A DNA stretch of 64,000 bases from Cryptobacterium curtum DSM 15641. Its GTDB lineage: Bacteria > Actinomycetota > Coriobacteriia > Coriobacteriales > Eggerthellaceae. The position numbers and the translations under genes were made by a program. How positions within the stretch are numbered: position 1 is the first letter of the stretch; each line of letters starts with the position of its first letter. This document shows positions 10,863-64,000 of this stretch, in pieces. Where the stretch lies: positions 1,404,501 to 1,468,500 of the forward strand of contig NC_013170.1 of NCBI RefSeq assembly GCF_000023845.1. The letters are read 5' to 3'. The notes under the pieces were generated by a model. That model worked only from the letters and a program-made list of their open reading frames with translations, was not told where the DNA came from and searched no databases.

Positions 10863-10990
10863 CCAGTATTGAGATACCTCCCCATCACCCCGCCCTGTAA
10901 TGATTCCCTTTTTTGCACGCGTTCACTCCTTCGCGTCGATGGAATAATTCCTATCTACGCGTACCTTGAGTCCCATGCCCTCTCTCATGC

Positions 10991-11035
10991 AAGCGGACCG
11001 TGTTGCCACGTTGTCGGCCGCACGGTCCGCTTGTT
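10991..11035 (+). terminator. Rho-independent terminator of the flavoprotein gene
   Basis: AAGCGGACCGTG pairs perfectly with CACGGTCCGCTT, a 12-bp stem around an 18-nt loop, followed by GTTAAAGT. It sits 130 bp after the flavoprotein stop. Confidence 0.8.
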
Positions 11036-11103
11036 AAAGTAAGCCTATGAATCATGCGTTACACTGAACCGCACCATTAGAGCATTACCTGAAAGAGGCT
11101 GCC

Positions 11104-49771: not shown

Positions 49772-50176
49772 CTATTTAGACTCAAGTCCTTTAATGTAGG
49801 CAATCCACTTCTCGTAGGAAGCGTCGCTGATATCGTGCTCGATCAGGCATGCTTCAGTATCAGCGGTTTCTTCATCGATACCCAAGATATCGTGTAAAAA
49901 GCCGAATAGGAGCATATGGTGATCCAGCACTTTGCGCCCATATTCATAGCCAACTGACGTTAACGTAATATCGCCATAATAGGGCTGGTCAAGCATTCCT
50001 GCTGCCTTCAGACTCGATACGGCCTTACTGACTGACGCCTTTGACACACCAAGGTCGGTCGCCACATCAACAGAGCGAACCGGCGTTTTATCGGTTCCCC
50101 CAAGGCGAACGATTGATTCAAGATAATCCTCGTGCGATTCCGACATAACCGGACGAGCTTGACGATGCTTATCCAT
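49772..50176 (-). CDS. DtxR/MntR family metalloregulator
   Basis: Metal-dependent repressor of 134 residues with an N-terminal winged helix (SVDVATDLGVSKASVSKAVSSLK) and a dimerisation/metal domain with EDYLESIVRL and VLDHHMLLFGFLHDILGI plus IEHDISD, which holds the usual His/Glu/Cys-type metal ligands. No SH3 domain, as in MntR. Next to the suf genes and 9 kb from a second DtxR gene, so it may sense iron or manganese. AGGGGA precedes the ATG. Confidence 0.9.
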   Translation of the reverse strand: MDKHRQARPVMSESHEDYLESIVRLGGTDKTPVRSVDVATDLGVSKASVSKAVSSLKAAGMLDQPYYGDITLTSVGYEYGRKVLDHHMLLFGFLHDILGIDEETADTEACLIEHDISDASYEKWIAYIKGLESK

Positions 50177-50447: not shown

Positions 50448-50903
50448 CTATCCGTTCTGCGCATCCTGCGCAGCAGAAATGCTCTGATCAAGCATGGTGA
50501 GTGCAGTACGCCAACCAAGTTCAGCACACTTTACGCGTGCGGGCATCAAAGCAATGCTTTTCAGCTGAGCCGCCTCGCCGAGTTCTTCAAGTTCTGCATC
50601 GGTAGCATTACCCACAATCATGCGAAGGAAAATATCACAGAGATGCCGGGCATTCTCAACCGTTTCATCGGTAATCAGGTCAGCCATAATATCGGCCGAA
50701 GCTTGGCTAACAGCACAGCCACTTCCCACAAATGCAGCTTCTTCTACAACCCCATTTTCAATCTTAAGCGACAGCGTAATGTCATCGCCACAACTCGGGT
50801 TAATCCCCTGATGAGACATCGTGGGGTCGTCCATTTGATACTTGTAATCCGGGTGAGCATTATGCTCCATAAGAGCCGCTGTATAAATATCATTAAGCGC
50901 CAT
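50448..50903 (-). CDS. sufU: SUF sulfur acceptor/scaffold SufU
   Basis: Zinc-dependent sulfur-transfer partner of SufS. The 151 residues show the SufU/IscU pattern: MSHQGINPSCGDDITLSL with the first Cys, FVGSGCAVSQASADIM with the second, and MPARVKCAELGW with the third. Start at 50903 overlaps sufS by 11 nt. Last gene of the operon, as in Firmicutes. Confidence 0.95.
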   Translation of the reverse strand: MALNDIYTAALMEHNAHPDYKYQMDDPTMSHQGINPSCGDDITLSLKIENGVVEEAAFVGSGCAVSQASADIMADLITDETVENARHLCDIFLRMIVGNATDAELEELGEAAQLKSIALMPARVKCAELGWRTALTMLDQSISAAQDAQNG

Positions 50904-52161
50904 GGAATATCTCCCGCACCTTTGCAATACCTGACACCAATGCATCGATGTCAGACTGATCGTTATAAAGAGCCACTGAAGCGCGGCAGCAACTTTCAAC
51001 ACCCATCCAGCGAAGAAGGGGCTGCGCGCAATGATGGCCAGCGCGAATAGCTACGCCCTGAGAATCGAGAATGCTTGCGACATCATGGGGATGCACCCCA
51101 CAAACATTGAATGACACCACCCCAACATGTGATGCTGGATCGGACGGGCCGATCAGGCGAATGTAGGGTAATTCACATAAGCGACGCGTGCATTCAATCA
51201 CTAAAGCCCGCTCGCGCGCCTCAATATTTTCACGCTTGACCGCACGCATATAGTCGACCGCTGCCCCCAGTCCAACAATGCCAGCAGCATCTTGAGTGCC
51301 TGCTTCAAACTTCTGCGGAACAGCAGCGCAACCATACGATTCTTCGGTTACCCAATCGATCATTTCACCACCCGTCAGGAATGGTGGCATTTTTTCGAGA
51401 AGGCTTTTCTTTGCCCAAAGTACACCAATGCCCATAGGGCCGAACATCTTATGGGCCGAAAATACGAATGCATCGCAGCCAAGTTCCTGTACATTGACAC
51501 CCATGTGGGGAGCGCTCTGAGCGCCATCAACGAAACAGAGAGCGCCCATTTCATGGGCACGTTGAGCAATCTCCCGCACCGGATTCTCAACACCAAGTAC
51601 GTTGCTTACCTGCACGACTGAAACAATCTTCGTGCGCGGCGTGATTTTCGCCTCAATTTCTTCAGGTGTGATAACGCACTCACTGTCGGGACGCATAAAC
51701 ACCAACTTGGCGCCCGTGGCACGGCATACTTCCTGCCAGGGAATGAGATTGCTGTGATGCTCCATGATGGTAATGCACACTTCATCGCCCGGCCCCAAAA
51801 TGGTGCGCCCGAGCGATGCCGCCAGAATATTGAGCGACTCTGTTGCGTTACGGGTAAAGACAATTTCCTGAGAGAGCGGAGCACCAATAAAGTCAGCGAC
51901 CTTGCGGCGTACCTTATCGATTGCCTCAGTTGCTTCGATAGAAAGACGATAGAGCCCCCGAAGCGGATTGCTGTTGAGGCGCTCATAAAAATCGCGTTGA
52001 GCATCAAGGACACCGGCAGCGCGCTGTGCCGTAGCTGCACTATCCAAAAACGTAAGATCTTGCGCGTTTGCAAGAAGGGGAAAATCCTTCTTGTAGGGGT
52101 TTTCTTGTATATCGACCGCGTCAATAGCTTCTTGCGTGGCCTGAGGAGCGAAAGGTGCCAT
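50893..52161 (-). CDS. sufS: Cysteine desulfurase SufS
   Basis: PLP enzyme that takes sulfur from cysteine. In 422 residues: FLDSAATAQRAAGVLDA, IMEHHSNLIPWQ, FVDGAQSAPHMGVNV, the PLP Lys in FSAHKMFGPMGIGVLW and the persulfide Cys in IRAGHHCAQPLLRWMG. It starts at the last base of the sufD stop (TAATG overlap). Partners are SufU and the SufBCD scaffold. Confidence 0.97.
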   Translation of the reverse strand: MAPFAPQATQEAIDAVDIQENPYKKDFPLLANAQDLTFLDSAATAQRAAGVLDAQRDFYERLNSNPLRGLYRLSIEATEAIDKVRRKVADFIGAPLSQEIVFTRNATESLNILAASLGRTILGPGDEVCITIMEHHSNLIPWQEVCRATGAKLVFMRPDSECVITPEEIEAKITPRTKIVSVVQVSNVLGVENPVREIAQRAHEMGALCFVDGAQSAPHMGVNVQELGCDAFVFSAHKMFGPMGIGVLWAKKSLLEKMPPFLTGGEMIDWVTEESYGCAAVPQKFEAGTQDAAGIVGLGAAVDYMRAVKRENIEARERALVIECTRRLCELPYIRLIGPSDPASHVGVVSFNVCGVHPHDVASILDSQGVAIRAGHHCAQPLLRWMGVESCCRASVALYNDQSDIDALVSGIAKVREIFHGA

Positions 52162-53468
52162 TAGTTTTCTTCTCCTTTGTCGTTCTCGCTACCGGCCCTA
52201 CGGTCAATAACACGCAGCGCAAGACGATCGATACTAGTACGAGCAGCCTTGGTACGTGCATGTGTAGCGGCGTAATCAAACTGTGCGCCAATAAATAGCG
52301 CTTCGGCTTGCTTAACTGACAGCCCACGTGCCTGTAAGTATTCCAACTGTTCAGGGTTTACATGCCCAATAGTTGCCCCGTGATCGCCCTGCACATCGTC
52401 CTCGTGACAGAGAATAACAGGCATCGTTTTATTGCGCGCGCCTTCACTAGCAATAAGAACGGTTTCTTGTTCACGCCCAACTGAACCCGAACAACCGCGC
52501 ACCAAATCGATAGTTCCACGTAGTGTTTTACTCGATTCATCAGCTAATACACCGTTTGCAGAAAGCAGCCCTTCAGTTTCTGTACCGCGCTGAACAATAA
52601 GGTAATTGAAGTCGAGCTTCCCCATACCATGCCCCAGGTAGTGCGTGTCAACACCCGTGGTTGCCTTCGCACCCGCAAGATCGATCGCCATACCTATCCA
52701 TGAAGCATCTGAACCAAGAATGGTCTCGTCCATTTCGATGCGTGCTTCGCGTGTCGCGAACGCAGCGACATTTTCGAGGTATGCAAAGCCTTCATCGAGT
52801 GTCTGTAAGAACTCAACGCGGACACATGCCTGTGCAGCAGCCGCAACGCGCACTTGTACGCCCGCGGTACCACAAATGCCCGTACCGGTAACACTGGGGC
52901 CAGCGCTCGGAGAATCGCTGTCGATATCAGCATCACTGCCGCCAGCATGAACACCAACGCCAGTACTACTACCAGCCGGAGAATCCACATGAACCAACAC
53001 ACGAACGCGGGCTTCAGGAAGTGCAGCTACGTTGAGAACAGCCACCGTAGTAGCCTGTGCTTGAGCATCGAGATACAAATCGATTGTTGCATCAGCACCT
53101 TCGTCAACTACCGCCGAAGTTGTCGTGCAAGCCGCTCGATCGAGCCATGCTTCCGCTTCCGGACCCATGCCCGATTCGAACCGTTCTGCTTCAATCTGTG
53201 CAAGGACTTCATCAAATGCTGTTTGACCCGATGAAAGAACAACGCCCTTGGAAGCTGAAAGCGAAATAGAATCGGCATTAGCACGCACGAGGGCGGCTGT
53301 CTTAAAGGGAACTTCATTCATTTTAAGATTATGCCAGGTAATCGCCCGCGGACGGTTCACCATAAGTATTTGTGCTTCATCGCCCATTGGAGAAGCAGCT
53401 ACTTCTTCAGCGGTAAACTGACTGCGCCGCGCAGTACGTAAGGCGGTATCTTGTGATGTCGTACCCAT
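52161..53468 (-). CDS. sufD: Fe-S assembly scaffold subunit SufD
   Basis: Partner of SufB in the SufBCD scaffold. The 435 residues carry the SufBD core: a right-handed beta-helix (~200-370) ending VILCHEDDVQGDHGATIGHVNPEQLEYLQARGLS. It is more divergent than SufB, with a variable Ala/Val/Gly/Ser/Asp-rich stretch around residues 160-210. It overlaps sufB and sufS by 1 nt each. Confidence 0.93.
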   Translation of the reverse strand: MGTTSQDTALRTARRSQFTAEEVAASPMGDEAQILMVNRPRAITWHNLKMNEVPFKTAALVRANADSISLSASKGVVLSSGQTAFDEVLAQIEAERFESGMGPEAEAWLDRAACTTTSAVVDEGADATIDLYLDAQAQATTVAVLNVAALPEARVRVLVHVDSPAGSSTGVGVHAGGSDADIDSDSPSAGPSVTGTGICGTAGVQVRVAAAAQACVRVEFLQTLDEGFAYLENVAAFATREARIEMDETILGSDASWIGMAIDLAGAKATTGVDTHYLGHGMGKLDFNYLIVQRGTETEGLLSANGVLADESSKTLRGTIDLVRGCSGSVGREQETVLIASEGARNKTMPVILCHEDDVQGDHGATIGHVNPEQLEYLQARGLSVKQAEALFIGAQFDYAATHARTKAARTSIDRLALRVIDRRAGSENDKGEEN

Positions 53469-54886
53469 TACCCGATCGCCCCTTCCATGCCTTCCATCTC
53501 CAGCTTGATCAGGTTGTTCATCTCAACTGCGTACTCAAGTGGCAACTCTTTGGAAATCGGATCGGCAAAACCGTTCACGATCATCGTAGAAGCCTCTTGC
53601 TCTGAAATGCCACGGCTACGTAAGTAGAACATCATGTCGTCACCAATACGGCCAATACTTGCTTCGTGGCCAACGTTGACGTGCTCGGCACGTACATCCA
53701 TTGCTGGAATCGTATCGGACCGACTGAGATCGTCAAGCATAAGCGACTGACACGACACATAGACATCGGCGTCCTCGGCCGCTTCAGTAACTAACACACT
53801 CGAACGGAATGTCTGAACACCACCGTCCTTAGAAATACCCTTCGTATCAATATGAGCAGCCGCACGCGGAGCATTCAGCACCACCTTGCAGCCCGTATCG
53901 AGGTTCTGCGTCGCGCCTGAAAACGTAATGCCGGTAAATTCGCAGGACGAATCGGCGCCATTCATAATGCTCATCGGGTACAGATAGCCCACGTGAGAGC
54001 CAAAACTACCCGACACCCATTCAATCTTGCCATTGTCGTCAACGACAGCACGTTTGGTGTTGAGGTTATACATATTCTTCGACCAATTTTCGATCGTTGA
54101 ATAGCGCAGCCGCGCGTTCTTACCCACAAACAGCTCAACCGCACCGGCATGCAAATTCGCCACATTGTACTTCGGAGCGCTGCATCCCTCAATGAAATGC
54201 AGATCGGCATCGTCCTCAACAATAATGAGCGTATGTTCAAACTGGCCAGCCCCTTTCGCATTTAAGCGAAAGTAGCTCTGCAGTGGGAAGTCCATCTTTA
54301 CCCCGCGCGGGACATACACAAACGAACCACCTGACCAGACTGCTCCATGCAGTGCCGCGAATTTGTGATCTTCGGGCGTAATCAGCTTCATGAAGTGCTC
54401 GCGGATAAGATCGGCGTACTCGCCATGAAGCGCTTCTTCGATACCGGAATACACCACGCCCTCTTTGGCAACAGTGTCCTGGATGTTGTGATAGACGAGT
54501 TCAGAATCGTACTGAGCACCAACCCCCGCCAAATAGGCACGTTCTGCCTGCGGAATACCTAAACGCTCAAATGTGTCCTTAATGTCGTCAGGCACGCTTT
54601 CCCAGTCGCTTTTTTGCTCGGTCGGCGGTTTTACGTACGTGACAATATGATCCATATCGAGACCTTCAACCGAAGGGCCCCAATCGGGCACCGGCATGCG
54701 ATTATAGATCTCAAGCGATTCCAAACGCAGATCGAGCATCCACTGCGGTTCATCTTTGCGCGCAGATATTTCACGCACGATATCGGGAGTCAGGCCGGCA
54801 TCAAGCCGATCGTAGCCCTCTTCACTTTTAATGAAGTCGTACAGGCTCCGATCGACCTCGGTAACCGCCTGTGTTTCGGCAGCCAT
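53468..54886 (-). CDS. sufB: Fe-S assembly scaffold subunit SufB
   Basis: Main scaffold on which new Fe-S clusters form. In 472 residues: WMLDLRLESLEIYNRMPVPDWG, GGSFVYVPRGVKMDFPLQSYFR, FIEGCSAPKY, GSFGSHVGYLYPM and the terminal HEASIGRIGDDMMFYLRSRG with the conserved late residues. Very well conserved. The start overlaps the sufC stop by 1 nt. Confidence 0.97.
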   Translation of the reverse strand: MAAETQAVTEVDRSLYDFIKSEEGYDRLDAGLTPDIVREISARKDEPQWMLDLRLESLEIYNRMPVPDWGPSVEGLDMDHIVTYVKPPTEQKSDWESVPDDIKDTFERLGIPQAERAYLAGVGAQYDSELVYHNIQDTVAKEGVVYSGIEEALHGEYADLIREHFMKLITPEDHKFAALHGAVWSGGSFVYVPRGVKMDFPLQSYFRLNAKGAGQFEHTLIIVEDDADLHFIEGCSAPKYNVANLHAGAVELFVGKNARLRYSTIENWSKNMYNLNTKRAVVDDNGKIEWVSGSFGSHVGYLYPMSIMNGADSSCEFTGITFSGATQNLDTGCKVVLNAPRAAAHIDTKGISKDGGVQTFRSSVLVTEAAEDADVYVSCQSLMLDDLSRSDTIPAMDVRAEHVNVGHEASIGRIGDDMMFYLRSRGISEQEASTMIVNGFADPISKELPLEYAVEMNNLIKLEMEGMEGAIG

Positions 54887-55818
54887 TACTGATCCTCCGC
54901 AGAAAGAGCTGCCTCAGCCCGTTTAAGAGCAGCCTCGGCATCGAAGGAGGACTCTTCTTGTGCTACCTCGTCAGCAAGAGGCTGAGCGTTGCCGGTGGTG
55001 CGAGTTCCCTCGTTGGCATGCACGTTTGTGTCAGAATTGGCACAAACGTTGGAATTAGAACCAGCATCAGGATCGGGGTCGCCGAATTGCTCGAAGCCCC
55101 GTTCGTTAATGTTGTCAATAAGTGACGCATCACCTTCGGCTACCATATGACCCTTTACCATTACGTGCGTGCGATCGACCGAAAGATGCTCAAGAATGCG
55201 CGTGTTGTGGGTGATAAGCAAAATGGTGCCATCGCAGTCTTCGCGATACGCGGCAATGGCACGCGATACCACATTGAGCGCATCGATGTCTAAGCCCGAA
55301 TCGGTTTCATCGAGAATGGCAAGCTTCGGCTGCAAAAGAAGCAGCTGGAGCATCTCGACCTTTTTCTTTTCGCCACCCGAAAAGCCAACATTGAGCTCGC
55401 GCTGTAAGTATGACTCGCTCATGTCGAGCTGATCCATAACTTCGGCAATACGTTTTTTGTAGCGCTTGCCCTTAAGATTTAGATTTTTATGCTGCGCGGT
55501 AATAGCGCGAAGAAAGCTTGACAGCGGCACTCCCGGGACTTCGACAGGTGCTTGAAAGCTCATAAACAACCCCTGGCGGGATCGATCGGTTACATTGAGT
55601 TCCGTGAGGTCTACCCCATCAAGCACAATCGACCCACCCGTAAGGTCATATACGGGGTTGCCCATAATAACCTGACCGAGCGTGGACTTACCTGCCCCGT
55701 TAGGACCCATGAGCACATGAGTATTACCGCGATTAATTGTCAGATCGATGCCATGCAAGATCGGCTTATCGTCCACACCAGCATTAAGACCATGAACAGA
55801 AAGTAGCGCGTCTTCCAT
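54886..55818 (-). CDS. sufC: SUF ATPase SufC with C-terminal extension
   Basis: ABC-type ATPase that drives shape changes in SufBD. Motifs are intact: Walker A GPNGAGKSTLG, Q-loop SFQAPVEVPG, signature FSGGEKKKVEMLQ, Walker B LAILDETDSGLDIDAL and H-loop LITHNTRIL. The 310 residues exceed the usual ~250: residues ~246-310 are an Asp/Asn/Ala/Glu-rich tail. First gene of the operon, with GGAGG before the ATG. Confidence 0.96.
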   Translation of the reverse strand: MEDALLSVHGLNAGVDDKPILHGIDLTINRGNTHVLMGPNGAGKSTLGQVIMGNPVYDLTGGSIVLDGVDLTELNVTDRSRQGLFMSFQAPVEVPGVPLSSFLRAITAQHKNLNLKGKRYKKRIAEVMDQLDMSESYLQRELNVGFSGGEKKKVEMLQLLLLQPKLAILDETDSGLDIDALNVVSRAIAAYREDCDGTILLITHNTRILEHLSVDRTHVMVKGHMVAEGDASLIDNINERGFEQFGDPDPDAGSNSNVCANSDTNVHANEGTRTTGNAQPLADEVAQEESSFDAEAALKRAEAALSAEDQ

Positions 55819-56007: not shown

Positions 56008-56256
56008 CTAGAACAACCCCAAAAATCGCTTACGAGGCTCACCAACCTGCGCAGACACAAATGTATAACCCGTTTCGTCAATTATGTGTTTGAGCTGGGA
56101 TTCATCAAGCGGCTCTTCAGAAAGAACAACCGCTGTGCCCTTCCCGTGAGACGCTGAAACCTTTTTTACGGAAAACGCTTTACGGATAGCATCATTGATA
56201 TGCGCTTCACACATACCGCACATCATTCCATCGATATGAATCGTTGTCTGTATCAT
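56008..56256 (-). CDS. Heavy-metal-associated (HMA) domain protein
   Basis: An 82-residue CopZ-like metallochaperone. The metal site is GMMCGMCEAHI (Cys ~13 and 16), followed by a ferredoxin-like betaalphabetabetaalphabeta pattern ending IIDETGYTFVSAQ. The tail GEPRKRFLGLF is an addition. It lies ~160 bp behind the P-type ATPase on the same strand, so it probably delivers metal to or from that pump. Copper or zinc are the usual ligands. Confidence 0.9.
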   Translation of the reverse strand: MIQTTIHIDGMMCGMCEAHINDAIRKAFSVKKVSASHGKGTAVVLSEEPLDESQLKHIIDETGYTFVSAQVGEPRKRFLGLF

Positions 56257-56416
56257 ACTCTATCCTTCCACCAGCTTAATTGAATAGTGTTCCACACACG
56301 AACGACAACACGCCATTACCCTTAAAAGCCTCTTGTCAAACACGTGAAACAATCCTTCGTCAAACTCTCCTCACAAGAACGAACATGCAAGTGTACCTTG
56401 CTCTGACTTACAGCGT

Positions 56417-58549
56417 TTAGAAAATTTCCGCATCAGATTCAGGTAAAGATGCCGCTGGCAACAAAGAGGTCGTGTTATGTGCGGTTACTCCCACCGTTGA
56501 AAGATTATGCAGCGTTGAGGTAATCGCAGGGGTAAGTACGCCGGCCACACCCAATGCAATAAGCGTGGTGTTGAACCCAACAATAAATTGATAGTCGCTA
56601 TGAATACGCTTCATCAATCCACGTGAAAGCCGACGAAGCATCACCAATGACTCCAGCGAAGCGTCAAGCACTGTCACATCAGCTACCGCACGAGCCACAT
56701 CGCTAGCGTCACTTAAGGCAACTGATACGTTCGCTGAAGCAAGCGCCGGCGAATCATTAATGCCATCGCCAACCATAATGACCGTGTGTCCTTCTTCTTT
56801 AAGACGCTCAACATAGCTCGCTTTATCTTCAGGCAATACCTGTGCATGATATTCATCGATACCAACTTGTTTAGCAATTTGTCGCGCACACAACTCAGCA
56901 TCACCTGTCAGCATAACCACCCTCTGAATGCCTGACGCACGCAACTGCGCTACCGCATCAGCCGCCTCAGAACGCAAAGGGTCGGTAATACATAGCACGC
57001 CGCGCAAAGTACCATCAATAGCTAAAAATACAGTAGACGAAGCAGGAGCCTCGGCTTCTAGTCGTTCAAATAAACCTTCAGGACAGGGTGTTCCTTCATC
57101 TTCAAAGATAAAGTGAGCACTACCAATGCGTGCCGATTTTCCCCCAACTGTCGAAGCAATACCGTGTGCAACAACGTATTCAACTTCGGTATGAAGTTCT
57201 TTTTCATGATGAAGTCCCGCATCGCTGGCGGCTCTAACAATTGCACGAGCTAGACTGTGAGGGAAATGCTCTTCAAGGCAGGCAGCAATCTTAAGGACAT
57301 GGTCCTCATTTTCGCCATCCATACAGATAATTTTTTCAACCTGTGGAGACGCTTCGGTCAACGTACCCGTTTTATCAAATACAACCACGTCAGCAGCATC
57401 GAGTGCTTCAAGGTATTTGCCACCCTTAACCACAGCACCGCGATTAGAAGCTTCCCGCATCGCAGACATTACTGCAACAGGCGTCGAAAGCTTAATTGCA
57501 CATGAGTAATCCACCATGAGAGTGCTTGAAGCACGTACCAAGTTTCCACCTGTAAGGGCTAACATAGCGACGAATGCAAATAAATTAAATGGAACAAGTC
57601 TATCAGCCAAACGCTCAGCACGGCTCTGAGCTGACGCCTTAAGTTCAGATGACTCTTGCACAAGCGCAACAATACGATCAATACGAGTGTGGCCCGGAAG
57701 CGCGTTGACCCGCACAATCATTGAGCCATCCTCAACTGCAGTTCCTGCAAACAATGTTGAGCCTTCACGCTTATGAACCAAAATGGATTCGCCAGTCATC
57801 GAAGCTTCGTTCACTTCACCTTCACCTTCAACGACTGTTGCGTCAACCGGCACCGAAAATCCAGTACGGATACGAATAAGTTGTCCAATTTGAACCGTCT
57901 CTAGACGGTGTTCACGTTCAGATCCGTCATCGTCAACTACCCATACCGTGTCGCCACGTACAAGAAGACTGTTTTCAAGTGCAATACGAGTACGTGCATT
58001 CACATGCTGCTGCATCATGTCGGATATCGACAGCAGAAACATAATGCCGCCTGCCTGTGCGAACTGACGCTGCAGCAGAGATACCGTAATGGCTGTTGCA
58101 TCAAGCACCTCAACTGTCAACTTACCGGAAAGCAAATCACGCAAGCCCTTTAAGATAAACCCAGCTGCTCGAATAAGTGTGAATGCTGTTGCAAATGGTG
58201 GTGGCATCAAAAACCGCCTGGTAATATACCCACCGACCGCAATTACAAGAGCCCGGGCAAATTCGTTATTCTCATGAGCCATGTCCTCGTTCGCATCCGC
58301 TTCAGCCACAGGCAGGTCATACATATCGAGCCCATTAACGAGCGCAAGAGCTTGATCGCGCACGACAGAATGTACAGGGTCATATTCAATCAACACGCTG
58401 CCATTCGCACTGCGCACCTGTGCGTTATCAACGCCCTCGATCTGACGCAGGGCAGCCGCCACACCATATGCCTCAACAGTGGTAAATAACGCAGCACCAC
58501 AACGTAAGCGTAAACGACCCGGAATATCTTGCATGACGCGATAGATCAT
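56417..58549 (-). CDS. P1B-type heavy-metal ATPase with DYSCAIK metal motif
   Basis: Metal efflux pump of 710 residues. An N-terminal degenerate HMA-like domain (~1-75) lacks the CxxC pair. Phosphorylation site VFDKTGTLT, TGES actuator motif (ASMTGESILV), HP motif EEHFPHSLA and hinge GDGINDSPAL are intact. The helix-6 metal site reads VDYSCAIKLSTP rather than CPC, close to the SPC/YSC type of the mycobacterial CtpC group, which is tied to Mn or Zn. The preceding PacL-like gene supports that grouping. Confidence 0.92.
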   Translation of the reverse strand: MIYRVMQDIPGRLRLRCGAALFTTVEAYGVAAALRQIEGVDNAQVRSANGSVLIEYDPVHSVVRDQALALVNGLDMYDLPVAEADANEDMAHENNEFARALVIAVGGYITRRFLMPPPFATAFTLIRAAGFILKGLRDLLSGKLTVEVLDATAITVSLLQRQFAQAGGIMFLLSISDMMQQHVNARTRIALENSLLVRGDTVWVVDDDGSEREHRLETVQIGQLIRIRTGFSVPVDATVVEGEGEVNEASMTGESILVHKREGSTLFAGTAVEDGSMIVRVNALPGHTRIDRIVALVQESSELKASAQSRAERLADRLVPFNLFAFVAMLALTGGNLVRASSTLMVDYSCAIKLSTPVAVMSAMREASNRGAVVKGGKYLEALDAADVVVFDKTGTLTEASPQVEKIICMDGENEDHVLKIAACLEEHFPHSLARAIVRAASDAGLHHEKELHTEVEYVVAHGIASTVGGKSARIGSAHFIFEDEGTPCPEGLFERLEAEAPASSTVFLAIDGTLRGVLCITDPLRSEAADAVAQLRASGIQRVVMLTGDAELCARQIAKQVGIDEYHAQVLPEDKASYVERLKEEGHTVIMVGDGINDSPALASANVSVALSDASDVARAVADVTVLDASLESLVMLRRLSRGLMKRIHSDYQFIVGFNTTLIALGVAGVLTPAITSTLHNLSTVGVTAHNTTSLLPAASLPESDAEIF

Positions 58550-58856
58550 GAATTAATCCCCTTCTTTAAACCCACTCAACTCTCATCGGTTACCAGTAGT
58601 ACGTCTATAAACAACGCGTACCGTTAAATGCTCCAACTACGGGGTTTAACCTCAAGCAACATCAACTGTAAAAGGCGATGTAACCACAGGCAATATCAAC
58701 TACAGGTAACAATTGCCTACACAATACCAACTGTAAATAATAGTTTTGGTTACAAAAGACAATTAGTAGTAAATAACAGTAAAACGAATAACGACGCGCC
58801 CAGCCAATACGGCTAGGCGCGTCTCTCTGCACTACAGCAGCCTGTTTCAGGTAGAA
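58550..58856. repeat. Four degenerate repeats spaced ~31 bp, before the P1B ATPase gene
   Basis: A gene-free 307-bp stretch. The core [at]YCAACTRYR occurs at about 58632, 58661, 58694 and 58725, i.e. every 29-33 bp or three helical turns, with CAAY just ahead of most copies. A terminator (58793-58823) separates it from the PacL-like gene. The repeats may be protein-binding sites or an old tandem duplication. Confidence 0.45.
58793..58823 (-). terminator. Terminator behind the PacL-like gene
   Basis: GACGCGCCTAGCC-GTATT-GGCTGGGCGCGTC on the minus strand, a 13-bp stem with one G-T wobble, followed by GTTATTCGTTTT. The wobble pairs only in minus-strand RNA, which fixes the direction. It should reduce read-through into the ATPase gene. 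Confidence 0.85.
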
Positions 58857-59168
58857 TTACTTTCCTTTTTTGGATGTAGTCTTACCGTCGATTTGCGCGG
58901 TTGCTTCTTCGCGAGCTTCTTGTTCAACTTCATCCATGCGCTGACGAACCGCTGCTTCAATGCGACGCTTGCGATCAGCTTCAGCACGGAGGTCCTGTGC
59001 ATCATCAATAATGCTCTGCGTTGCTGTCTGAAGACTATCGTTTGCAGCCATGGCTGACGCCACACCTTTCACGACGCCCTTACGCACCGTCGCGCTTTTC
59101 GATGCCGCTTGGATGACTGCTGACGCAACCATGCCACCTGCAAATAAGCCGATTTTTGCCCAACCCAT
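58857..59168 (-). CDS. PacL/DUF6110-like small membrane-associated partner of the metal ATPase
   Basis: A 103-residue protein. Residues ~3-24 form a Gly/Ala-rich hydrophobic helix (WAKIGLFAGGMVASAVIQAA), then VRKGVVKGVASAMAANDS and a long Ala/Glu/Arg helix (~50-95). This layout resembles PacL/DUF1490 proteins, which stand beside CtpC/CtpV-type ATPases in mycobacteria, and DUF6110 proteins of Firmicutes. The usual C-terminal metal motif is not seen; the tail is Lys/Thr/Ser-rich. The start at 59168 follows AAAGGGG. Family placement is inference. Confidence 0.68.
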   Translation of the reverse strand: MGWAKIGLFAGGMVASAVIQAASKSATVRKGVVKGVASAMAANDSLQTATQSIIDDAQDLRAEADRKRRIEAAVRQRMDEVEQEAREEATAQIDGKTTSKKGK

Positions 59169-59310
59169 AGTCAGACCCCTTTCAAAGATAATTACATGTA
59201 CATTGCATACCTTGCTTTCGCCACAACTGAGTATCCAAGCGGCGCCGTCGTTATTCCACTCCAAAAAGACGAGAACAATCCAAAAGGACCATATGCGAAA
59301 TAATCCACAT

Positions 59311-59331
59311 AAGGTTGGAAAACCTAACCTT
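59311..59331. promoter_or_regulatory. DtxR-box-like palindrome, upstream of PacL-like gene
   Basis: AAGGTTGGAAAACCTAACCTT: six-base arms AAGGTT/AACCTT around a 9-bp centre. It resembles the DtxR/IdeR consensus half-site AGGTTAG. It lies in the 278-bp region shared with the divergent DtxR gene. Confidence 0.55.
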
Positions 59332-59381
59332 CCTCTTTTTATTTTTGACAGTAATTCCTTACTTCTTTTCACTTTTAAAGG

Positions 59382-59398
59382 AAGGTGAGGCTAACTCT
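59382..59398. promoter_or_regulatory. DtxR-box-like site at the promoter of the DtxR gene
   Basis: AAGGTGAGGCTAACTCT closely follows the DtxR/IdeR consensus (AGGTTAG-S-CTAACCT) with a mismatch in each arm. It covers the -35 position for a TACAAT -10 box at 59412-59417, so binding would block transcription of the regulator: a probable autoregulatory site. Confidence 0.55.
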
Positions 59399-59446
59399 CC
59401 ATTGTTTTAGCTACAATAGTAAAACCGAATTGGGAAGGATACGCTT

Positions 59447-59860
59447 ATGTCCCTTGTCTTACATGAATCCGCTGAAATGTATCTCGAAACCATCTATCTA
59501 CTGCAGCAACGAAGCGACAATGTGCGTGCTGTCGATATTGCTGCAGAGATGGGTTTCTCAAAACCAACCATTAGTGAATGGATGGGAAAGCTCAAAAAAG
59601 AGGGGCTGATTAGCGCAGCAGCAAACGGCTCTATCATTCTGTCGGAGCATGGCGAGAAAATAGCACAAAGCATTTATGAACGCCATACGGTGCTCAATCA
59701 AATATTCCAATTGATCGGCGTTTCCCCCGATGTGGCCGTCCATGACGCCTGTCGCATCGAGCACTATATCAGCGATGAAACCTTTAAATGCCTTAAAGTA
59801 TATTTCGCTGATGCCCTTAAAGACGCTCCTCAAGAAGAGGACGAGTCAGAAACAAAGTAA
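59447..59860 (+). CDS. DtxR/MntR family metalloregulator (second copy)
   Basis: A 137-residue metal-sensing repressor. The winged helix is VRAVDIAAEMGFSKPTISEWMGKLKKEG (~residues 25-52); the metal/dimer domain has ESAEMYLETIYLLQ, RHTVLNQIFQLIGV, Cys-Arg-Ile-Glu-His (CRIEHYIS) and an acidic tail. No SH3 domain. Divergent from the PacL-like gene, with operator-like sites between them; it probably controls the efflux module and itself in response to Mn, Fe or Zn. AAGGAT precedes the start. Confidence 0.92.
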   Translation: MSLVLHESAEMYLETIYLLQQRSDNVRAVDIAAEMGFSKPTISEWMGKLKKEGLISAAANGSIILSEHGEKIAQSIYERHTVLNQIFQLIGVSPDVAVHDACRIEHYISDETFKCLKVYFADALKDAPQEEDESETK

Positions 59861-59984: not shown

Positions 59985-60905
59985 TTAGGTTTCCGCTGGA
60001 TTCGCGCGCTGTCGCCAAAGGCGCGGTGTCATACCCATGCAAGCCGTAAACGCATGGGAGAACTTTGACGGGTTTGCGTAGCCGACTTCAGCGGCAATAC
60101 TCGCAATTGAAACGCCTCCGCGCTCCAGAAGAAGATCGCCAGCACGTTGCATGCGGTACAAGCGATACCAGGAATACAAAGGAATGCCAAATGCTTCTTT
60201 AAAAGCTTCTTTGAGCACCGTCGCTGATGCTCCACATTCTTGTGCAACCTCAGAAATGGTTAAAGCCCGCGTGAGGTCACGCATCATAACCTCTTGAGCG
60301 CGCAGCGCAATACGCAGTCGACGCGCTTGCATGCTTGCATCAGCACTGAGCAGGCCCTGCTGACGTGAAGCGCGCAAAGCCACGAGCAACAATTCAATTG
60401 CTTTAAGACGACAGTACTCCACATCTCCTTCGCGAGCCATATTTTCTATTTCAGCTGCAATATGAGCTATCGCGGTACCCGTTTCAAGATGACAACAGGA
60501 ATCTTTAGGAGCAACAAGGCTTGCCATGGCTACCCCAGTAACACCAAAGCGAGATAGGCAGCCATCAGCTTCGTTATAAGCACGCGCCTCACATGAAACA
60601 ACCACGCCACGAAAGTTCTCGAGAGTAACAGATGCTTGCTGTTCTGAATTGGAGTGCAGCGCTACCGTACTTCCAGCATGGACCGTTGTATTGTGCCTAC
60701 GAGAAAACCGACAGTGCGCAAGCCCTCTCCCACAGTAAGCAATCGATGTTGTTTCGCCTGCATGTGGCAAAGTAACAGCATTCTGCTTGCCCGAAGCTTG
60801 TGCAACAGGCAGCATATTGACGACGTAAAGAACGACACCCGGAAAAAGCTCTATCGATCGCGCTCCATAAAACGGGCGCACAGGTCGAAAGGCAGCCTCT
60901 ATCAT
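59985..60905 (-). CDS. AraC family transcriptional regulator
   Basis: A 306-residue regulator with a variable N-terminal domain and a C-terminal double helix-turn-helix (~210-300): LTISEVAQECGASATVLKEAFKEAFG and ISIASIAAEVGYANPSKFSHAFTACMGMTPRLWR-type residues. The layout resembles PchR/YbtA-like regulators of iron genes. Its place between the Feo genes and the DtxR module fits metal control, although the target is unknown. The N-terminal domain has several Cys residues that could sense metal. Ribosome site weak (GGTGG). Confidence 0.88.
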   Translation of the reverse strand: MIEAAFRPVRPFYGARSIELFPGVVLYVVNMLPVAQASGKQNAVTLPHAGETTSIAYCGRGLAHCRFSRRHNTTVHAGSTVALHSNSEQQASVTLENFRGVVVSCEARAYNEADGCLSRFGVTGVAMASLVAPKDSCCHLETGTAIAHIAAEIENMAREGDVEYCRLKAIELLLVALRASRQQGLLSADASMQARRLRIALRAQEVMMRDLTRALTISEVAQECGASATVLKEAFKEAFGIPLYSWYRLYRMQRAGDLLLERGGVSIASIAAEVGYANPSKFSHAFTACMGMTPRLWRQRANPAET

Positions 60906-60939: not shown

Positions 60940-61134
60940 TCATTGACGCCTCTGCGCCCTTTCATCAGCCTTTTCCATATCGGCAACCATTTTATCGGCA
61001 ACATCACACCCATTGCAGGCACCGTCGCATCCGTCGCACCCGCGCGGTCCACGACCCACCAAGCGACGAATCGTCGGAATAAGGGCGATCAAAATAATCG
61101 CCAGCGTAAGAATTGTTCCTACATTCAGTTCCAT
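60940..61134 (-). CDS. FeoB-associated Cys-rich membrane protein
   Basis: A 64-residue protein with one membrane helix (~6-22) followed by RGCDGCDGACNGCD, four Cys in CxxC-x3-CxxC-like spacing. This is the FeoB_associated (FeoC-like) family, usually encoded behind feoB. It starts with the same five residues as FeoB (MELNV). A strong hairpin sits between feoB and this gene, so its expression is probably lower than feoB. Confidence 0.88.
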   Translation of the reverse strand: MELNVGTILTLAIILIALIPTIRRLVGRGPRGCDGCDGACNGCDVADKMVADMEKADERAQRRQ

Positions 61135-61275: not shown

Positions 61276-63750
61276 CTATGACGCATCCTTTTCATTGACA
61301 GATAAGCGCACTTTTTCGCTCTCGTACTTGTTTGGGCGAACAAGCAGATAAATCATCGCAGCTGCTACCGCAATAGCGACAATAGTGAATACATTGAACG
61401 AAACCTCGCCCAGAACCAAACCAGCAAACTGGTAAATGAGCATCGAGATTACGTATGCGAAACCGCACTCATAACCGATGGCCGCCCAGAACCACTTACC
61501 ACCGCCCATTTCCTTACGAATAGCGCCCATGGCAGCAAAGCACGGAGCACACAACAGGTTAAAGGCCAAGAATGCGTAACCCATTGCAGGAGCATAAGCC
61601 GCCTGCACATTGGCGTACCAGCCAGCACCACCAGCGTACAAAATACCAAAAGTACTGATGACGTTCTCCTTGGCAATCAAACCTGTAATGGTAGCCGCTG
61701 CTGCCTGCCAATCATTGAAGCCTTGCGGCGTAAAGATCCACGCAATCGCGTTACCAAACATGGCTAGTAAGCTCATAGCCTGGTCGTCAACTGGCCCGAA
61801 TGCACCATCAGTAAATCCGTAACCCGAAAGGAACCAAATCACGATAGCTGCAGCCAAGATGATCGTGCCAGCTTTTCTGATGAATGACCAGCAACGCTCA
61901 CCCATACTACGTAGGATTGAACCTGGTGTTGGCCAGTGATAAGCCGGCAATTCCATAACAAACGGAGCTGCTTTGCCAGCAAAAGGCTTTGTCTTCTTCA
62001 GGATAATACCTGATACGAGAATCGAGGCTATTCCCAAGAAGTAGGCGCTTGGGGCAACCCACCATACGCCGCCGAATACGGCACCAGCAATAAGCGCAAT
62101 AATAGGAAGCTTAGCTGAGCACGGCATGAACGTCGTGGTCATAACCGTCATATGACGATCGTTTTCATTCTCGATCGTACGCGACGCCATAACACCCGGC
62201 ACGCCGCAGCCAGTACCGATAAGCATCGGAATAAAGCTCTTGCCCGACAGGCCGAAACGACGGAACACACGGTCAAGAATAAAGGCAACACGCGCCATGT
62301 ACCCGCAACCTTCAAGGAATGCGAGGAACAGGAACAGAAGAATCAACTGCGGCAAGAAGCTCAGTACAGAACTGACACCAGGAATAATACCGTCGGTTAC
62401 TAAGCTCTGAACTTGCTCGTCAACATGACCAGCTTTCATGGCGTCGCCAAGCAGAGCTGACACACCCGGCACCCAGAAGCCATATTCAGTTGGATCGGGT
62501 TCTTCAAGTGCAACAGCATCGGCATATTCGTCGGCGTCGACCGTCACGACTTCGTTTTCGCCGGCATCCTGATCGTAGGCATCGTAGTCAATCGAAATAC
62601 CTGCATCACGTGCCTGCTGAATAAACTCATCAAGGTCGTCTTCATATGCGGCCTTATCGGCATCGCTCGCATCATCACCAGGAGCTTCAGGCGCTTCTAA
62701 GCCATACTCAGCAGCAGCTTTATTGAATGCTTTAATCTCATTCTGCGCCTGTTCATATGGGTCATGCACTTCACTGTATTCATCTTGACCTGCACCGATA
62801 TACCAACCATCACCAAAAAGGCCATCATTGATCCAGTCAGTGAGGTTCGTGCCCAAGGCGCTTACCGACACCCAATACACAAAGAACATAATGACAACGA
62901 AAATAGGCAGAGCTAAGAAACGGTTGGTTACAACCTGGTCAATTTTGTCAGAAACACTCATGCCACCTGTGTTTTTACAGGTAACGCACCGATCAATAAT
63001 ACTGGTAATATAAGAATAACGCTCATTAACAATGATGCTCTCAGCATCGTCGTCCATAGATTTCTCAAGCGTTTTAATGATGTCTTCGACAGCGGGTTTT
63101 GCACTCAGATGAGATTCTATCTTGCTGTCACGTTCAAACAGCTTCACAGCAAAGAAACGCTTCGCACCAGCCGAAACATCGGCAGGTAAAAGATCTTCGA
63201 TCTTGGTTAGTGCCTGCTCAACTTCATCGGCAAACTGGTGTTTGCGAACAGGAGCCTGTTTAGCTTGTGCTACTTCAAGAACCTTCTCGACCGCTTCGGT
63301 GATACCGGTATTCTTAAGGGCTGAGATAGCGACAACCGGACAACCCATTTTTTCAGAAAGCGCCTGCAGATCAATGCTATCGCCTTCCTTTTCTACAACG
63401 TCCATCATGTTCACGGCCATGATGGTAGGTATGCCAAGCTCGATCACCTGCGTGCTTAAGTAAAGGTTGCGCTCTAGGTTGCTTCCGTCGACGATATTGA
63501 TTATCGCATCAGGCTTCCCATCGATTAAATAATCGCGCGCCACCACTTCTTCAAGCGTATACGGTGAAAGCGAGTAAATACCCGGCAAGTCAACGATGGT
63601 CACATCTGAATGGCCTTTCAACTTACCAGTTTTCTTCTCAACGGTTACACCAGGCCAGTTACCTACGTACTGGTTTGCACCGGTGAGGGCGTTAAATAAG
63701 GTGGTTTTCCCACAATTAGGATTGCCCACCAACGCCACGTTCAGTTCCAT
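61276..63750 (-). CDS. feoB: Ferrous iron transporter FeoB with acidic insertion
   Basis: Main membrane pump for Fe(II), 824 residues. The G-protein domain has GNPNCGKTTLFN, GNWPGVTVEKK, DLPGIYSLSP (G3) and AVNMMDV (G4), then the FeoB core helices from ~285, with the first conserved helix FLALPIFVVIMFFVYWVSV and later GTGCGVPGVMASRTIENENDR. Residues ~318-425 are an Asp/Glu-rich insertion not usual in FeoB, placed after the first helix. ATG at 63750 has GGAGG 5 nt upstream; an upstream start adds 4 residues. Confidence 0.96.
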   Translation of the reverse strand: MELNVALVGNPNCGKTTLFNALTGANQYVGNWPGVTVEKKTGKLKGHSDVTIVDLPGIYSLSPYTLEEVVARDYLIDGKPDAIINIVDGSNLERNLYLSTQVIELGIPTIMAVNMMDVVEKEGDSIDLQALSEKMGCPVVAISALKNTGITEAVEKVLEVAQAKQAPVRKHQFADEVEQALTKIEDLLPADVSAGAKRFFAVKLFERDSKIESHLSAKPAVEDIIKTLEKSMDDDAESIIVNERYSYITSIIDRCVTCKNTGGMSVSDKIDQVVTNRFLALPIFVVIMFFVYWVSVSALGTNLTDWINDGLFGDGWYIGAGQDEYSEVHDPYEQAQNEIKAFNKAAAEYGLEAPEAPGDDASDADKAAYEDDLDEFIQQARDAGISIDYDAYDQDAGENEVVTVDADEYADAVALEEPDPTEYGFWVPGVSALLGDAMKAGHVDEQVQSLVTDGIIPGVSSVLSFLPQLILLFLFLAFLEGCGYMARVAFILDRVFRRFGLSGKSFIPMLIGTGCGVPGVMASRTIENENDRHMTVMTTTFMPCSAKLPIIALIAGAVFGGVWWVAPSAYFLGIASILVSGIILKKTKPFAGKAAPFVMELPAYHWPTPGSILRSMGERCWSFIRKAGTIILAAAIVIWFLSGYGFTDGAFGPVDDQAMSLLAMFGNAIAWIFTPQGFNDWQAAAATITGLIAKENVISTFGILYAGGAGWYANVQAAYAPAMGYAFLAFNLLCAPCFAAMGAIRKEMGGGKWFWAAIGYECGFAYVISMLIYQFAGLVLGEVSFNVFTIVAIAVAAAMIYLLVRPNKYESEKVRLSVNEKDAS

Positions 63751-63779
63751 TGATACCTCCATGATACTACAATAGTTAG

Positions 63780-63843: not shown

Positions 63844-64000
63844 CTAAACGATCTCTACATGCTCAGCTTCGCTTTTACGCAAGGACAGCTCATAGCCGCG
63901 AACAGTTACTTCAACTGGATCTCCCAGTGGAGCAACCTTACGCACATATACCGAAGTGCCTTTGGTGATACCCATGTCCATGATGCGACGTTTTGTGGCG
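63844..64000 (-). CDS. feoA: FeoA domain protein, 5' part beyond window
   Basis: Only the last 51 codons are in the window. The sequence RRIMDMGITKGTSVYVRKVAPLGDPVEVTVRGYELSLRKSEAEHVEI is a classic SH3-like FeoA domain. It ends ~95 bp before feoB on the same strand, giving the usual feoA-feoB order. The start codon lies to the right of the window. Confidence 0.93.
   Translation of the reverse strand, partial: ATKRRIMDMGITKGTSVYVRKVAPLGDPVEVTVRGYELSLRKSEAEHVEIV

Follow-up and report, generated by a model that had tools for sequence, protein, structure and literature searches.

We describe here a gene cluster of Cryptobacterium curtum DSM 15641, whose genome is one contig of 1,617,804 bp, as read in a 64,000-nucleotide stretch of contig NC_013170.1 (positions 1,404,501 to 1,468,500; the window). 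Its core is a pair of minus-strand genes, encoding a FezA/PacL-like small membrane protein of 103 residues (58857..59168) and directly downstream a predicted FezB-type P1B-6 ATPase of 710 residues (56417..58549), which probably constitute a FezAB-type iron-loading or sequestration module that lies within an iron-import cluster and makes ferrosomes. The gene order, the family of the ATPase, the remote homology that links the small protein with FezA and DUF6110, the linkage to feoAB, and the ligands of a divergently encoded DtxR-family regulator are observed directly. An earlier note on this DNA had proposed a metal-efflux module of four parts, namely an HMA protein, a non-CPC P1B ATPase, the 103-residue protein, and the divergent DtxR gene, and all four genes are present at the positions it gave. 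It did not include feoA, feoB, and the genes for a FeoB-associated protein and an AraC regulator, which adjoin dtxR on its far side, and which we count to the same cluster because related genomes show them together. The minus-strand order is thus feoA, feoB, FeoB-associated protein, AraC regulator, (plus-strand dtxR), small protein, ATPase, and HMA protein, the last three being transcribed in that order.

The ATPase is by its sequence a P1B-6, FezB-type pump. It scores above cut-off with the general heavy-metal P1B models (TIGR01525, E 1e-144) and, as subfamily, the cadmium model TIGR01512, and it falls far under the CopA and ZntA equivalog cut-offs. The N-terminus is HMA_2-like, with PGRLRLR and no CxxC, and further motifs are LMVDYSCAIK, DKTGTLT, EEHFPHSLA, GDGINDSPA, and, at the C-terminus, LHNLST. 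Transmembrane segment 4 (TM4) contains VDYSCAIKLS at residues 346–355, with YSC (348–350) in place of CPC, and the LHN at residue 680 puts an HN motif in the last helix pair; an HN motif, a conserved feature of P1B-6 ATPases (PMC9374683), is therefore found together with a TM4 that has no CPC, the two marks of this class. The nearest solved structures in the PDB are Cu+ and Zn2+ pumps, with no P1B-6 ATPase among them.

Searching the C. difficile genome, located with a 16S probe, gives a single best P-type ATPase with 40% identity (E 4e-168; the runner-up, also a P-type ATPase, has E 4e-74), and the sole DUF6110 protein of that genome is encoded directly upstream of it. We take this pair as FezB and FezA because the pair and its order match the published fezAB of strain 630, CD630_05910-05920 (PMC11651100); the two genes are entered as 'ATPase' and 'Hypothetical protein', and their expression rises at low iron and when fur is mutated, with a Fur box located at the gene of the hypothetical protein (PMC6311696). 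According to a review, ferrosomes require both FezA and FezB, and Fur represses the two (PMC12574912). Relatives of the window ATPase at E < 1e-100 occur in 105 of 296 Coriobacteriia genomes and fall in two groups, clade A with 45–63% identity and clade B with 39–46%. A quick tree of 53 ATPases joins the C. difficile pump, clade A, and clade B in one clade of 45 (support 100), and leaves outside it every CPC pump as well as the CtpC-type pump from a relative that carries DUF1490. Every readable member of this clade has [YF]SC[AG] in TM4. Wherever the C-terminus is complete HN is found, at the position where CPC pumps, the CtpC type excepted, carry MSxSS-like residues.

The small protein has an N-terminal membrane helix with GG and a long Ala/Glu/Arg-rich helix, and a single-sequence prediction gives one long helix over residues 8–97. 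The absence of an evident metal-binding tail, to which the earlier note drew attention, extends to the family, as no His or Cys occurs past residue 65 in the window protein or in nearly all of its relatives, and the hydrophobic start shared by the family contains an invariant glycine. Relatives were found in 30 of the 296 genomes, with two matches set aside (L029, which is partial, and L030, which lies inside an FtsK-like frame), and the gene immediately precedes that of the ATPase in all 27 genomes in which this could be measured, at distances of 15–310 nucleotides. The search against DUF1490 and DUF6110 that the earlier note had suggested leaves the window protein under both cut-offs, with no Pfam or NCBIfam match over threshold and no match to DUF1490 (PF07371), but a profile built from 23 family members aligns over 66 columns with a DUF6110 profile headed by C. 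difficile FezA (hhalign, probability 96.9, E 2e-10), and reversed and block-shuffled controls reach E 0.028 or worse. We conclude from these profiles that the small protein is remotely homologous to FezA/DUF6110. Taken singly, 11 of the 23 members match DUF6110 weakly (best E 5.9e-5) and 10 match DUF1490 weakly (best E 6.8e-5), and because the members match both, we place the subgroup between the two families. The earlier note's view that the protein belongs to the PacL (DUF1490) and DUF6110 circle is therefore upheld; it had named the lack of both a family match and a conserved neighbourhood with the ATPase as grounds for giving up that view, and both are found.

Full membership in PacL (DUF1490) was considered and rejected, the protein being under the cut-off and without a metal tail, with a partner ATPase that has YSC and lies outside the CtpC type. 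DUF6110 proteins are described as partners of P1B-6 ATPases that lack a metal-binding motif, in pairs found mainly in Firmicutes and also in Actinobacteria (PMC9374683), and the proposal of an actinobacterial-anaerobe version of PacL gives way to a pair of this wider type. Across 149 genomes of the phylum DUF1490 has one clear member and three weak matches, two of the latter being clade B DUF6110 proteins. Two small proteins encoded upstream of clade B ATPases, in loci L149 and L150 (genomes G021 and G018), match both DUF6110 (1e-13 for L149) and DUF1490 (1e-5 for L149), which argues that these families are related. A PDB search with the small-protein profile returned chance coiled-coil matches only.

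Linkage to ferrous iron import is a further line of evidence. The window encodes the importer FeoB (61276..63762, minus strand) and FeoA (63844..63981, minus strand), the latter partly read near the window edge and identified by tblastn, with 73–89% to FeoA genes that precede feoB in related genomes; the Pfam FeoA model confirms one of these genes (L121). A feoB gene is within 8 kb of the pair in 15 of 28 clade A genomes, a count that is not phylogenetically independent and that involves nine genera and two arrangements, one co-directional and one divergent (in G284). Thirteen of the 15 have the co-directional row feoA-feoB-(araC)-small protein-ATPase. Given about 1.8 feoB genes per genome, chance proximity is expected at about 1.3% per genome, and a fortuitous joining in some ancestor of a housekeeping feo cluster with a P1B-6 pump for a metal that need not be iron, to which the clade B pumps with no feo nearby would lend some color, is very improbable in view of the recurrence of the linkage across genera and in both arrangements. 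The cargo is probably Fe2+, because the ATPase falls in the FezB clade, feoAB is linked, and the DtxR-family regulator has iron-type ligands. We found no ferritin or bacterioferritin in the C. curtum genome, whose ferritin superfamily consists of one Dps and one rubrerythrin-like protein, and which therefore has room for another iron store.

The divergent regulator (59447..59860, plus strand) aligns Met11 to Met10 of DtxR, and its Cys-Arg-Ile-Glu-His segment fits Cys102-x2-Glu105-His106. MntR has Asp and Glu as the corresponding ligand pair. Alignment to 2h09 and to DtxR shows Met and Cys where MntR has Asp8 and Glu99, and for this reason we favor iron as the metal sensed. Like DtxR and IdeR, the regulator has an N-terminal and a dimerisation domain as well as these ligands; unlike them it is short (137 residues) and has no SH3-like third domain, as in MntR. 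There is a reasonable case that it controls the pair, and the two DtxR-box-like sites that the earlier note reported in the 278-bp divergent gap do exist as putative operators. One, GAAGGTGAGGCTAACTCTC at 59381..59399 (plus strand), has 14 of 19 consensus positions and ties the best score in the 64 kb; the other (59309..59332, plus strand), with the inverted repeat AAGGTTGGAAAACCTAACCTT at 59311-59331, has 13 of 19. Both are weak and suggestive only. A full-consensus box with three or fewer mismatches was not found, and the upstream regions of relatives share no consistent motif. A second DtxR-family gene, whose product has Asp as its first metal ligand residue and Cys as its second, lies at 49787-49960 (minus strand), just past the suf cluster (50893-55818).

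These data bear on the metal that the earlier note favored, Mn or Zn, and on its picture of a PacL/CtpC-like efflux module served by a separate HMA chaperone. That some family members resemble DUF1490 proteins, that the regulator scores best against MntR models, and that an HMA gene is adjacent would all suit such a module, and yet we judge it improbable. TM4 has YSC and not CPC, the pump groups with that of C. difficile fezAB and outside the CtpC type, feoAB is linked in 15 of 28 relatives, the regulator has Met and Cys ligands, and the HMA gene is not conserved. The HMA-domain protein (56008..56256, minus strand; Pfam HMA E 3e-9) carries CGMCEAH within the motif MMCGMCEAH, is a rare protein in the class, and has no known partner here. 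Its homologues occur in four of 149 genomes, none elsewhere with a P-type ATPase within about 1.5 kb, and only one of 40 related loci has one within 8 kb of the ATPase, 4 kb off and on the other strand. The role of replacement chaperone and fourth part that had been proposed for it is accordingly withdrawn, and we regard it as an adjacent neighbour only.

If the cargo is iron, several steps can be proposed. FeoAB would bring Fe2+ into the cytosol, and the FezB-type ATPase would move Fe2+ from the cytosol across a membrane. The FezA-type protein would bind and cluster the ATPase and probably organise its membrane, by analogy with PacL (PMC13043812) and FezA. Together the pair would fill a membrane-bound iron store, the ferrosome, as FezA and FezB of C. 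difficile do, and the divergent regulator would repress the genes when iron is plentiful. We lean towards storage in a membrane-bound compartment over plain efflux, because a pump that expels iron fits poorly in one row with an importer. Pumps of the P1B group that expel Fe2+ occur in other bacteria. If the two proteins instead formed a clustered pump in the plasma membrane that rids the cell of surplus iron, and no organelle, they would resemble the pumps that PacL proteins cluster in that membrane (PMC13043812), and sequence alone does not separate this arrangement from storage. Such efflux is nevertheless unlikely, as the co-directional feoAB linkage would couple import to export, and the nearest characterised pair yields a ferrosome and is expressed more strongly at low iron. 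The term efflux, used in the earlier note, is thus better replaced by loading of a storage compartment, which suits both the neighbouring importer and a pair of FezAB type.

Several observations weigh against a ferrosome module of this kind. The best direct match of the window small protein is to DUF6110 at only E 0.067 and 13.7 bits, relative to a Pfam gathering score of 26 bits for that family (PF19605), and the relation to FezA stands at profile level only, with no clade A member reported over the Pfam cut-off. The fezAB identification in C. difficile rests on later papers and gene order. None of the 15 sampled clade B genomes has feoB near the pump, and these pumps pair with true DUF6110 partners. 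On the regulatory side, the best full-length NCBIfam match of the DtxR-family protein is an MntR model, the divergent placing of dtxR is confined to C. curtum and two near relatives, G284 and G189, and a score of 14 of 19 is reached by 1.9% of shuffled gaps. In the G189 copy (L107, about 10866-11054) a TGA codon falls in frame within the stretch that matches, a sign of either a decayed gene or an assembly error.

The likeness to C. difficile fezAB (CD630_05920-05910) lies in a small DUF6110-type gene directly upstream of an [YF]SCA/HN ATPase in an iron context, with the 40% identity running along the whole ATPase and the small proteins matching at profile level. Unlike C. difficile FezA, the window protein is under the DUF6110 cut-off and has a longer second helix and a shorter tail; the cluster takes in feoAB, AraC, and, in the nearest relatives, a DtxR gene in place of Fur control; and the organelle is known in C. 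difficile whereas the C. curtum module is known from its genes alone. FezC, a DUF4405-like cytochrome, belongs to the clusters of D. magneticus; for C. difficile the named components are FezA and FezB. The DUF6110/P1B-6 pairs termed 'PacL-like' (PMC9374683, PMC13043812) share the membrane helix, the Ala/Glu helix, the lack of a metal motif, the type of partner, and its position, but the window protein is under the family cut-off and belongs to a distinct subgroup (clade A) with a feoAB linkage that is absent in sampled clade B. The mycobacterial PacL1-CtpC (DUF1490) effluxosome is similar in architecture, in a remote resemblance of the small proteins, and in the HN that CtpC-type pumps also carry in their last helix pair. 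It differs in that the window protein has no DLHDHDH-type tail and the window ATPase has no CPC, is only 33% identical to the CtpC-type pump of pacL-ctpC, and falls in a clade that excludes that pump; zinc or cadmium is not indicated for the C. curtum module.

FezAB pairs, and DUF6110 with P1B-6 ATPases, are already known; what is new is a subgroup that stays under every Pfam cut-off, its joint clustering with feoAB, and an iron-type DtxR protein at that position. If correct, our interpretation predicts iron-storage organelles in Actinomycetota of the human mouth and gut, in Cryptobacterium and across a wide range of related Coriobacteriia, for which a literature search found no report; a review counts ferrosomes in commensals among the open questions (PMC12574912). 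It would also join two systems that have been studied separately, the pump-clustering PacL of mycobacteria and ferrosomes with their requirement for FezA. The PacL papers of 2022 and 2026 link PacL to DUF6110 with ferrosomes unmentioned. The joint feoAB-fezAB cluster offers a natural setting in which to ask whether P1B-6 pumps serve to store iron or to expel it. A wider proposal, which we hold only tentatively, is that Coriobacteriia might possess a self-contained line from import to organelle, with FeoAB uptake and a FezAB ferrosome, in which a Pfam-invisible FezA subgroup bridges FezA/DUF6110 and the mycobacterial PacL family. A single family of membrane-clustering proteins, paired with P1B-6-type pumps, would then have two outcomes, the effluxosome and the ferrosome.

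The spacing within the C. curtum pair is peculiar. The gap between the two genes is 310 nucleotides (match to match), the longest of the 27 genomes, 25 of which have 15–132 nucleotides, and it contains a strong terminator-like hairpin of 14 pairs, 10 of them G-C (58793..58823, minus strand). The gap may result in unequal amounts of the FezA-like and FezB-like proteins. Between the hairpin and the ATPase gene is a leader of about 240 nucleotides (58550-58780) with imperfect repeats of 12–21 nucleotides. No metal riboswitch was found by Rfam in the region or in eight related loci.

Between dtxR and feoB are the genes for the AraC-family regulator (59985..60905, minus strand) and the FeoB-associated Cys-rich membrane protein (60940..61134, minus strand; PF12669). 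In seven related loci on the Atopobiaceae side an AraC homologue (35–47%) stands between feoB and the gene of the FezA-like protein. In one genus, g45 (L126, 3402-12515; also the sister loci L087, L088, L122, and L125), opposite-strand genes for a cation-efflux (CDF) protein and a MarR protein separate feoB from the pair, and the ATPase gene is followed by DUF3793 and flavodoxin genes.

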